Of a stretch of DNA of 64,000 nucleotides, positions 32,008 to 35,831 are shown one piece after another. The notes under the pieces were generated by a model. The model was not told the DNA's origin, made no database searches, and saw nothing but the letters and a program-made list of their open reading frames with translations. Each line of letters starts with the position of its first letter. Position 1 is the first letter of the stretch. The position numbers and the translations under genes were made by a program. Source of the DNA: Steroidobacteraceae bacterium. Lineage in GTDB: Bacteria; Pseudomonadota; Gammaproteobacteria; Steroidobacterales; Steroidobacteraceae. Location: the NCBI GenBank assembly GCA_019634915.1, contig JAHCAN010000003.1:1-64000 (forward strand), in the 5' to 3' direction.

Positions 32008-32895
32008 ATGCCCACAGTCTCCTCCGCCGGTGCGCGCCTGCGCGCTGCCGTCGACGCCGAACGCCCGCTGCAGGTCGCCGGCACGGTCAATGCGTACTCG
32101 GCCCTGCTCGCCGAGCGCGCGGGATTCAAGGCGATCTATCTGTCCGGCGCCGGCGTCGCGAATGCCTCGTTCGGCCTGCCCGATCTCGGCATCACCTCGC
32201 TGAACGACGTCTGCGAGGACGTGCGGCGCATCGGGTCGGCGACCGACCTGCCGTTGCTCGTCGACGCCGACACCGGCTGGGGCGGCGCCTTCAACATCGC
32301 GCGCACGAGCCGTGACCTCACCCGCGCGGGCGCCGCCGGCATGCACCTCGAAGACCAGGTGCAGGCGAAGCGCTGCGGCCACCGGCCCGGCAAGGCGCTG
32401 GTGCCGGCCGCCGAGATGGTCGACCGGCTGAAGGCCGCAGTCGACGGGCGCACCGATCCGGCGTTCGTGATCATGGCGCGCACCGACGCGCATGCGGTCG
32501 AGGGCCAGGCCGCGGCGGTCGAGCGCGCGCAGCGCTATGTCGAGGCGGGCGCCGACATGATCTTCGCCGAGGCGCTGACCACGCTCGAGGAGTATCGCGA
32601 GTTCACGCGCGTCGTGCCGGTGCCGGTGCTCGCGAACATCACCGAATTCGGCAAGACGCCGCTGTTCACCACTCAGGAACTCGCCGGCGCCGGCGTGCGG
32701 CTCGTGCTCTATCCGCTGTCGGCGTTTCGCGCGATGAGCCGCGCGGCGCTCGGGGTGTATGCCGCGATCCGCCGCGACGGCACGCAGAAGGCCGTCGTCG
32801 ACACGATGCAGACGCGCGCCGAGCTCTACGACGTGCTCGGCTACCACGACTACGAGCGCAAGCTCGATGCCCTGTTCGGACAGGAGGGAAGCTGA
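32008..32895 (+). CDS. prpB: Methylisocitrate lyase
   Basis: A 295-residue TIM-barrel lyase that splits 2-methylisocitrate into pyruvate and succinate in the methylcitrate cycle. The catalytic loop is KRCGHRPGK (about residue 123) with Mg-binding DADTGWGG upstream; [20 protein letters not shown] and YPLSAFRAM complete the PrpB pattern. Its TGA overlaps the prpC ATG by one base, with AGGAGG inside the prpB end serving prpC. Confidence 0.95.
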
Positions 32896-34052
32896 TGACT
32901 GACCCGGTTGCACCGAGCGGCCCGAAGCCAAAGAAATCCGTCGCCCTCTCCGGCGTCGCCGCCGGCAATACTGCGCTGTGCACGGTCGGGCGCAGCGGGA
33001 ACGACCTCGCCTATCGCGGCTACGACATCCTCGAGATTGCCGAAGCCTGCGAGTTCGAGGAAATCGCCCACCTGCTGATCCACGAGAAACTGCCGAACCG
33101 CGCCGAACTCGCCGCGTACAAGGCAAAGCTGCGCGGCCTGCGCAGCCTGCCGGCGGTCGTGCGGACCACGCTCGAGGCGCTGCCCGCCTCGAGCCATCCG
33201 ATGGACGTGCTGCGCACCGGCGTGTCGGCACTCGGCTGTGCGATGCCCGAGAAGGACGATCATTCCGCCGCCGGCGCGCGCGAGATCGCCGACCAGCTGA
33301 TCGCCTCGCTCGGCTCGATGCTGTGCTACTGGTACCACTACAGCCATTCGGGCCACCGCGTGCACGTCGAGACGCAGGACGACTCGATCGGCGGGCATTT
33401 CCTGCACCTGCTGCATCGCAAGGCGCCGCCGGAGTCGTGGGTGCGCGCGATGCACACCTCGTTCATTCTCTATGCCGAGCACGAGTTCAACGCGTCGACC
33501 TTCACCGCGCGCGTGATCGCGGGCACAGGCTCCGACCTGCACTCGTGCATCACCGGCGCGATCGGCGCGCTGCGCGGGCCGAAGCACGGCGGCGCGAACG
33601 AAGTCGCGCTCGAGATCCAGCAGCGCTATGCGACGCCCGACGAGGCCGAGGCCGACATCCGCCGCCGCGTCGCGCAGAAGGAAGTCGTGATCGGCTTCGG
33701 CCACCCGGTCTACACGATCGCCGACCCGCGCAACCAGGTGATCAAGGGCGTTGCGCAGCGGCTCGCCGAGGAGGCGCGCAACACCGGCCTGTACGACATC
33801 GCCGAGCGGCTCGAGCGCGTGATGTGGGACGCGAAGAAGATGTTCCCGAACCTCGACTGGTTCAGCGCGGTGTCGTATCAGCTGATGGGCGTGCCGACCG
33901 CGATGTTCACGCCGCTGTTCGTGATCGCGCGCACCACCGGCTGGGCCGCGCACGTGATCGAGCAGCGTGCCGATGGCAAGATCATTCGTCCTTCCGCCAA
34001 CTATGTCGGGCCGGAGAATCGGGCGTTTGTGCCGATCGAGCGGCGGCCTTGA
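32895..34052 (+). CDS. prpC: 2-Methylcitrate synthase
   Basis: A 385-residue citrate-synthase-fold enzyme condensing propionyl-CoA with oxaloacetate. Catalytic residues appear in [18 protein letters not shown], the [14 protein letters not shown] His segment, [13 protein letters not shown] and [13 protein letters not shown]. The type II short form (about 385 aa) and the neighbouring prpB support methylcitrate rather than citrate synthase. It follows prpB with a TGATG overlap and precedes the palindromic spacer. Confidence 0.94.
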
Positions 34053-34093
34053 GGGATGCGGGCGCAGCGCATGCGAGAGGCGAAGCGGGGTGT

Positions 34094-34311
34094 GCCAGTA
34101 GCCGGCCGGCCGCGAGGCTGCGCGTGCTGCGTGCCGGTTCCGGGTCGCGCGCGCCTCGTTCCTCGGCGTGCCCTCGCGGCGGGGGCGATGCGCGCCATTG
34201 GGACATCGCGGACCAGAGCGTGGGCGACGCGCATCGCTGCTCCCCGCCGCTCGGCGCGCTCCACGGAACCGGCACGCAGCACGCGCAGCCTCGCGGCGCG
34301 CGGGTTCTGGC
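34094..34311. repeat. Long palindromic element (perfect 34-bp inverted repeat with nested stems)
   Basis: This fills most of the 327-bp gap between prpC and prpD. The arms 34109-34142 and 34264-34297 are complementary at all 34 positions. Pairing continues imperfectly outward to 34094 and 34311. Inside, 34149-34155 pairs with 34253-34259, 34176-34184 with 34242-34250 and 34185-34194 with 34228-34237, leaving a 33-nt apical loop. Transcribed RNA would form one long hairpin of about 60 bp with a bulge. No frame encodes a recognisable protein. It could be a miniature mobile element, an attenuator or a structured RNA. Confidence 0.8.
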
Positions 34312-34379
34312 GCGCGCGCAGGCCTGAGCCGATACCCTTGCCCGCATCACTTCACCCATGTTTAGAGGTTTGAACGAAG

Positions 34380-35831
34380 ATGTCTGCCCACGACCACAAG
34401 TCTGCCGCGCGGCCTGATCCTGATCAGGTGATCGTCGATATCGCGGGTTATGCGAGGGACCGCGCGATCGACTCGCGGCTCGCCTATGACACCGCGCGTC
34501 ATTGCCTGATGGATACGCTCGCCTGCGGTTTCCAGGCGCTCGCGTATCCGGCCTGCACGCGGATGATGGGGCCCGTGGTGCCGGGCGCGACGATGCCGGG
34601 CGGCGCGCGCGTTCCAGGCACCAGCTACGAGCTCGACCCGGTGCAGGCCGCGTTCAACATCGGCGCGATGATCCGCTGGCTCGATTTCAACGACACCTGG
34701 CTCGCGGCCGAGTGGGGCCATCCGTCCGACAACCTAGGCGGCATCCTCGCTGTGGCCGATTACCTGTCGCGCAAGGCGATCATGGAGGGCGGCAAGCCGC
34801 TCACCGTGCGCGACGTGCTGACCGGCATGATCAAGGCGCACGAGGTGCAGGGCATCCTCGCGCTCGACAACAGCTTCAACCGCGTGGGTCTCGATCACGT
34901 GCTGCTGGTGCGGGTGGCCTCGACTGCGGTCGTGACCGCGATGCTCGGCGGCAGCCGTGAGCAGGTGGTGAACGCGGTGTCGAACGCCTGGATCGACGGC
35001 GGTGCGCTGCGCACCTACCGGCACGCGCCGAACACCGGCTCGCGCAAGAGCTGGGCGGCCGGAGACGCGACCAGCCGCGCGGTGCGCCACGCCTTCATCG
35101 CGATGACCGGCGAGATGGGTTATCCATCGGCGCTGTCGGCGAAGGCCTGGGGCTTCCAGGACGTGCTGTTCAAGGGCAAGCCGGTCACGCTCGCGCAGCC
35201 GCTCGGCAGCTACGTGATGGAGAACGTGCTGTTCAAGATCAGCTTCCCGGCCGAGTTCCACGCGCAGACCGCGGTCGAGTGCGCGATGCAGCTGCATCCG
35301 CAGGTCAGGGACCGGATCGACTCGATCGAAAAGATCGTCATCGAGACGCAGGAGCCCGGCGTGCGCATCATCGACAAGACCGGCCCGCTCGCGAACCCCG
35401 CCGACCGCGACCACTGCATCCAGTACATGGTGGCGATCCCGCTGCTGTTCGGGCGCCTGACCGCCGCCGACTACGAGGACGCCGTGGCCTCCGATCCGCG
35501 CGTCGACGCGCTGCGCGCGAAGATGACGGTGCAGGAGAATCCGACGTTCACGAAGGAATACTACGAGCGCGACAAGCGCTACATCGGCAACGCGGTGCAG
35601 GTGTTCTTCAGGGACGGCACGAGCACGCCGCGTATCGCGGTCGATTTCCCGATCGGCCACAGGAAGCGCCGCGACGAGGGCATGCCGGTGCTGGTCAGGA
35701 AGTTCGAGACCTCGGTCGCGGCGCATTTCGCCGCGAAGCAGGCGGCGGCGATCGTCGCGCTGTTCCTTGACGCCGCGAAGCTCGACGCGATGCCGGTGCA
35801 CGAGTTCGTCGCGGCGATGGTCAAGAACTGA
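34380..35831 (+). CDS. prpD: 2-Methylcitrate dehydratase, MmgE/PrpD family
   Basis: A 483-residue enzyme forming 2-methylaconitate from 2-methylcitrate. Typical segments are [64 protein letters not shown] and [14 protein letters not shown]. It represents the PrpD route, so no acnD/prpF pair is needed. An AGAGG lies 11 nt before the ATG. It is separated from prpBC by the palindromic element, so its expression may be uncoupled from them. Confidence 0.95.

Follow-up and report, generated by a model that had tools for sequence, protein, structure and literature searches.

What kind of element is the large palindrome that separates prpC from prpD in a Steroidobacteraceae genome, and how would it have come to lie there? 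Within the stretch of DNA that we analysed (the window, 64,000 nt), the two genes follow one encoding a PEP mutase/isocitrate lyase (Pfam) and are spaced 327 nt apart, and the space between them holds an inverted repeat. Its 34-bp arms (34109-34142 and 34264-34297) are each other's reverse complement without a mismatch, as an earlier note made from the sequence alone had reported, and they flank a core of 121 nt. The repeat extends at 88% to 51 bp (34102-34152 and 34254-34304) and ranks first among the 11 inverted repeats in the window with arms at most 300 nt apart. Energetically, the plus strand folds at −172.6 kcal/mol (shuffled mean −126.8, z −9.33) and the minus strand at −167.8 kcal/mol (shuffled mean −121.3, z −9.96), with 0 of 200 shuffles as good on either strand, so the shuffled-control folding that the note had proposed as a check came out in favor of the element. 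Two of the inner stems that it listed (34176-34184 with 34242-34250, and 34185-34194 with 34228-34237) and their 33-nt loop are as described; the other (34149-34155 with 34253-34259) exists as one register of the plus strand but is not part of the minus-strand fold common to other copies, which instead pairs 34147-34151 with 34255-34259 and 34172-34173 with 34253-34254, and forms a side hairpin from 34152-34155 and 34165-34168. The parts of the locus are as follows.

32895-34052, plus strand: prpC (2-methylcitrate synthase; Pfam citrate synthase family), its stop codon facing the element
34109-34297, minus strand (the modelled, folding strand): whole hairpin element, 189 nt; 148.7 bits with covariance model R1, itself built from this copy and one other, and 112 bits with model R2
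34264-34297, minus strand: 5' arm of the outer stem, 34 nt; arm sequence varies between copies
34109-34142, minus strand: 3' arm of the outer stem, 34 nt; stem base 56 nt from the prpC stop codon
34143-34263, minus strand: branched core, 121 nt, starting TGGAG and ending CGACC; 78 of 121 positions identical to the copy on contig C30
34255-34259, minus strand: 5' side of core helix P1b, pairing with 34147-34151 (helix 3; 99.7% of cells paired)
34147-34151, minus strand: 3' side of core helix P1b, partner 34255-34259
34251-34252, minus strand: GA of a GA/GA internal loop, partner 34174-34175
34242-34250, minus strand: 5' side of helix P3, pairing with 34176-34184
34176-34184, minus strand: 3' side of helix P3, partner 34242-34250
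34238-34241, minus strand: one-sided AGCA bulge, identical in the first two copies and variable in others
34228-34237, minus strand: 5' side of helix P4, pairing with 34185-34194; elsewhere partly replaced by a tandem G-A loop
34185-34194, minus strand: 3' side of helix P4, partner 34228-34237
34195-34227, minus strand: apical loop, 33 nt, variable
34152-34168, minus strand: side hairpin P5 (34165-34168 with 34152-34155), the third arm of the junction (helix 6; 99.1% of cells paired)
34380-35831, plus strand: prpD (Pfam MmgE/PrpD)

The same locus in relatives, a comparison that had been proposed for the palindrome, leaves the element no space. Twenty-six relative loci (L022-L047) were fetched via the prpC region, and in all 19 where prpD was also matched no more than 85 nt separates the two protein matches (in genome G004 the genes themselves are 47 nt apart), which is too little to accommodate a 189-nt hairpin; a prpD match was absent within the fetched DNA at seven loci, including that of G006. 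Judged from these sequences, the window copy is an insertion at prpC-prpD.

A BLAST search of the region against its own genome returned one convincing further copy, on contig C30 (G000:C30; L004), between ORFs that we take to be recG and ubiC. The two copies are identical at 12 of 34 arm positions and share the 78 core positions given above, and all 66 pairs are kept between them, 28 via changes on both sides (two loop nucleotides of the C30 copy excluded from the comparison), with 34 perfect outer pairs in each. With covariance model R1, 8 of 98 related genomes had matches at E ≤ 0.1, at least 71 in total: at least 19 (the window's own genome), 7, 1, 10, 3, 27, and 3 in seven genomes of the window's genus and at least 1 in G066, where at most 32 candidates per genome were scored under strict filters (in the own genome, 32 of 194 first-look candidates). 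Searched with a second model, R2, built from 63 copies, the 217 genomes of the family included at least nine carriers (E ≤ 1e-4; 14 candidates scored per genome): the seven genomes of the window's genus, G066 (at least ten copies), and G016 (at least one). These counts are lower bounds, since only part of the candidates was scored, and most of the genomes are drafts. An even sample of 369 genomes of the class yielded R2 matches in the own genome only, among 8 candidates scored each, a depth at which weak copies in other genomes of the class are conceivable. The earlier note's failure to see a second copy is correct within the window, where R2 has one match at E ≤ 0.01, and wrong for the genome, which holds at least 18 more; the copy count by BLASTN that it proposed, extended with the covariance model, has instead revealed a dispersed family.

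Several other candidates were rejected along the way. A single-copy palindrome or assembly oddity is incompatible with at least 19 matches in the genome and at least 9 carriers among 217 genomes. The remaining BLAST matches look like chance GC-rich matches: of 15 loci that were folded, L004 alone gave a hairpin of this kind. A DNA pattern of the core with one mismatch allowed matched 34 of 98 genomes, not clearly more than a reversed-pattern control, and a pattern match on a viral contig (L161) had no R2 match at E ≤ 0.01 and lay inside a called ORF. BLAST searches of plasmids and phages gave no match, BLAST being weak for this hairpin family, and the parts of the literature available to us contain no description of the family. 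The sole match in G016 among the candidates scored (L178:5657-5823), in a single contig of 4.6 Mb, has a stem of ~50 bp and overlaps the start of a called ORF in the same direction.

Structurally, 63 aligned copies show standard pairs in 90.3% of cells and covariation, with changes on both sides, at 32 of 44 pairs, counts that lean toward the modelled structure because the alignment was made with a model of that same structure. None of 500 shuffles reached any of five pairing and covariation measures, and sliding the partners against each other lowered pairing to 30-45%. Several helix positions switch between Watson-Crick pairs and G-A or A-G mismatches. With one vote per column, pair type, and genome, G-U outnumbers A-C by 42 to 18 (P 0.003) and G-A outnumbers C-U by 78 to 10 (P 3e-14), the votes being less than independent across neighboring columns and related genomes. 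The outer arms, strictly cut, show a weaker excess (G-U 28 versus A-C 18), and 31 of 70 such arms have no mismatch; an earlier arm count that reached beyond the arms (G-U 78 versus A-C 91) was replaced by the strictly cut arms and per-column votes. Read from the complementary strand, each G-U would be an A-C and each G-A a C-U, so that the imbalance marks the modelled strand, which in the window is the minus strand, as the one that folds. Covariation thus exceeds shuffled and slid controls on one strand, which bears out the structural part of the note's suggestion of a structured RNA; the strand excess says that the fold of this strand matters and fits RNA and single-stranded DNA alike. That stem letters change freely while the fold is kept suggests that shape, not sequence, is what counts. 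The family is, in sum, a lineage-specific, non-coding hairpin of ~190 nt, whose long, near-perfect outer stem is free in sequence and whose branched core is conserved.

The copies are arranged non-randomly with respect to each other and to genes. Among 82 copies, 21 of the 23 adjacent pairs (less than 2.6 kb apart) are inverted with their 5' bases inward. Alignment was possible for ten paired units of G005, including two truncated at contig ends. Eight of the ten are of a type A-spacer-B, and two (L152 and L154) have B-like outer parts at both ends. In L152, an A-like core is joined to B-like outer arms, and the A-B spacer of G005 (for example L143:5412-5845) carries a small inverted repeat, TGAGGTGAGGA / TCCTCACCTCA. 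The copies favor the 3' ends of genes: convergent genes enclose 28 of the 50 gaps that bear an element, versus 25 of the 112 remaining gaps at these loci (P 5e-5), and the other element-bearing gaps are 16 tandem and 6 divergent; in tandem gaps the 3' base points toward the stop codon in 12 of 13 single copies, as in the window, and the C30 copy, which stands outside the arrangement set, is contrary to this rule, with its 5' base toward the stop of the preceding gene. A looser call with a simple gene caller placed 75 copies in 34 convergent, 30 tandem (19 and 11), and 11 divergent contexts. The target duplications that the note had suggested looking for did not materialize: among the units open to testing (33 of 40 solo, 11 of 21 paired), the longest direct repeat equaled that of shuffled pairings. 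Such an absence can also mean that the insertions are old. Some copies of the own genome have CA at the 5' base and CGCG at the 3' base, but this junction motif did not hold across 65 copies. By eye, tandem heptamers of the type GGGCNNC continue from the hairpin base, complemented on the opposite side, in the flanks of G003 copies (L125, L129, L130, L131, and L132), and fainter ones are seen in G005 and, within the own genome, in L111.

Taken together, the copies are short, non-coding, and multi-copy, and the same place is empty in relatives, as expected of MITEs. We therefore assign a probability of about two in three to the reading that the window feature is a solo copy of a new, structure-conserved, dispersed repeat, most likely mobile and with structure-defined ends. 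We call it MITE/BIME-like because copies form inverted pairs, and we infer its mobility from the distribution of the copies and the empty sites.

The rival that survives best, and which we nonetheless consider unlikely, is that the family is primarily a non-coding RNA, with the minus strand transcribed, the folded RNA acting as an sRNA, 3'-end protector, or ribozyme, and dispersal secondary. A branched junction, common unpaired nucleotides, compensatory changes, G-U tolerance, and tandem G-A motifs on one strand would all suit such a molecule, and outgoing transcription in paired units would read both hairpins in sense. The hairpin also resembles the multi-copy ornate bacterial RNAs of Rfam in its branched fold, covariation, and common loops; unlike them, it is known here from DNA sequence alone and matches no family of Rfam 15 at the gathering threshold (window positions 33900-34500 and seven loci searched), the best sub-threshold match being MIR8670 at 44.5 bits, where 150 are needed, and others, on hairpin stretches, being MIR1144 and an L-myc IRES model. 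Neither a promoter-like site (sigma-70-like promoters included) nor a terminator-like one, with no T tract of an intrinsic terminator, was found at 34000-34450. Within 400 nt, 51 of 72 genes on the 3' side run antisense, so that transcripts of the neighbors would for the most part cover the opposite strand; on the 5' side, only 39 of 66 genes run in sense. Finally, a range from 1 to at least 27 matches per carrier genome, combined with free stem sequence, would be unusual for a functional RNA.

Evolutionarily, the outer arms turn over faster than their surroundings while remaining paired. Eleven copy pairs from seven sites adjoin the same gene in two species, and at these shared sites the outer 22 arm positions are 0.23-0.55 identical ungapped (0.45-0.59 at the best shift of up to four), compared with 0.42 without shift for random copies (47 copies), 0.61-0.77 for third codon positions of the flanking gene, and 0.69-0.91 for the cores. 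In 8 of 12 shared-site pairs (one of 13 was dropped for too few columns), the cores are no closer than those of non-corresponding copies from the same two species, whereas in 4 of 12 they are closer, as inheritance predicts; mean core identity is 0.78 within and 0.71 between genomes. Since sites are shared but most copies resemble those of their own genome, either repeated insertion at favored places or concerted evolution is implied, and vertical inheritance with concerted evolution, instead of re-insertion, could explain the sharing.

Arms that are less alike than neighboring third codon positions, yet paired, are also what one would expect of an ordinary MITE family of a DDE transposon whose ends turned palindromic and whose stems are paired by template-switch correction only, with no selection on shape. 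The G005 paired units, with their inverted ends, would fit that history, and template switching between arms can repair stems and keep them perfect, according to the parts of PMC8794818 available to us; it may well contribute to arm pairing here. Such correction, however, would erase rather than preserve the mismatched G-A loops, bulges, and branched core that are conserved, and both the strand asymmetry and the missing target duplication speak against this origin, which we regard as quite improbable. With MITEs and composite MITE units, including the TIME-COMPs and MITE-flanked integrons described in the available parts of PMC13367494 and PMC3934969, the family shares its short, non-coding make-up, its lack of an enzyme of its own, and the bracketing of cargo by two inverted copies; it differs in that each end is a complete structured hairpin, the arm sequence is not conserved, and neither a target duplication nor a parent was found. 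The parent, an autonomous element, was sought by eye in the ORF lists of the G066 units and of L134 and by domain searches of six cargo proteins, in genomes that are drafts.

Less probable still is a REP/BIME-type repeat with unusually large palindromes, mobilized by a RAYT (Y1) transposase, even though the dispersed palindromes, inverted pairs, and extragenic positions near gene 3' ends agree with it. As far as the available parts of PMC2817692 describe them, BIMEs are REPs in alternating orientation, and REPs are likewise dispersed extragenic palindromes, more alike within a genome, that usually exceed 100 per genome. By contrast, our hairpins are ~190 nt long with a branched core, the richest genome has at least 27 matches among the candidates scored, and the Y1_Tnp domain was found in 0 of 8 carriers (G016 left out) versus 5 of 14 control genomes, a result that largely refutes this origin. 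Because the domain is missing from those eight carriers, the element is not a REP in the defining sense. The note's MITE or REP/BIME-like reading thus holds for the dispersed palindromic family and its inverted pairs, and fails to find its Y1 transposase, target duplication, or autonomous parent.

Functionally, some paired units carry cargo. One pair in G001 encloses a TacA-like antitoxin and a PIN-domain ORF, and four pairs in G066 enclose 1.4-2.3 kb of lower-GC DNA (0.54-0.59 versus 0.64-0.66 outside), with DUF1697 and TfoX_N, DJ-1/PfpI, and HicB-like genes, respectively, in three of them. The left ends of the G066 units L172, the second pair of L171, and L173 (for which the partner hairpin was not found) share a stretch at 71-78%, and those of L172 and the second L171 pair resemble a stretch upstream of the integron integrase gene intI of G066, a resemblance equaled by 0 and 1 of 300 shuffles; BLAST at 1e-3 gave no match between these left ends and that integrase locus. 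By eye, these two left ends finish in GTTRRRY, the sequence with which attI sites end, and attI/attC-like sequences are visible in L171 and L172; an automated attC search of the cargo gave nothing of the expected form in L134, L171, or L173-L177, and its one result in L172 was a pair of boxes lying across the left end of the unit. In addition, a G066 hairpin (E 2.2e-9) lies ~385 nt past the end of intI, which runs toward the sense hairpin, a direction that would also suit a transcribed RNA; the far end of the G066 cassette array lies off the contig. These observations are suggestive of an integron derivation for some G066 units.

More broadly, eight of the nine carriers have an integron integrase that scores over the cut-off, and 51 of 208 non-carriers of the family have one at E ≤ 1e-60. 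We treat this association as a lead only, because the carriers are relatives of one another and the integrase is present, with no hairpin match, in four congeners of G066. Six integrase loci of the window's genus (L193-L198) have no hairpin at E 0.01. The integron integrase gene of the own genome (G000:C8:64905-65840; L189, L193) is in pieces with an internal stop codon, unlike that of most congeners. Ordinary attC-like palindromes of 60-88 nt occur in G002, G016, and G066, and locus L199 (G016:C1:426001-446000) of the single-contig genome G016 has several 88-nt ones of one type near an integron integrase. Integron attC sites act as folded single strands, and the hairpins resemble them in that structure is kept while sequence is free, one strand matters, and unpaired features are kept. 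That the hairpin is itself a giant attC or another substrate of the integron integrase is nevertheless the least probable of the rivals, despite the integrase distribution, the intI-proximal hairpin, and the intI-like left ends, given that in none of 82 copies do attC boxes (RYYYAAC / GTTRRRY) flank the matched stretch at a distance of up to 60 nt, that the hairpins occur in inverted pairs or solo and are at least twice as long as the ordinary attC-like sites found alongside in the same bacterial family, and that integrase loci without hairpins exist in the window's genus and among the relatives of G066.

Returning to a mobile, structure-defined repeat, we posit that each hairpin would be the end of a mobile unit, the unit consisting of two hairpins back to back that may or may not enclose cargo, their 5' bases inward and their 3' bases adjoining the host DNA, and that solo copies, including the one in the window, would be half-units or remnants. 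The end would probably be recognized as a folded single strand, DNA being likelier than RNA for the mobility step, by an enzyme that acts in trans and leaves no target duplication; our searches recovered no transposition event, excision product, or mobilizing enzyme. Stem pairing despite turnover might then reflect selection for shape, template-switch correction between the arms, or both, where correction would be expected to remove mismatched loops.

Among sites in mobile DNA that are defined by the shape into which a strand folds, integron attC sites are the well-known case. As a bolder conjecture, to which we give distinctly less than even odds, the family may represent a second, independently evolved structure-defined mobile DNA end, in which a recombinase would read the folded single strand (branched core, tandem G-A loops, and bulges) and ignore the stem letters, such that ends could diverge without limit, insert beside gene 3' ends without target duplication, and, in inverted pairs placed back to back, transport toxin-antitoxin and cassette-like cargo. 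Families of this sort escape sequence searches, as BLAST found one convincing further copy in a genome where a structure model found at least 18. With arms that diverge and stay paired, the family offers natural data on what preserves long stems, selection or template switching, and it poses a concrete search problem: which enzyme reads the fold.
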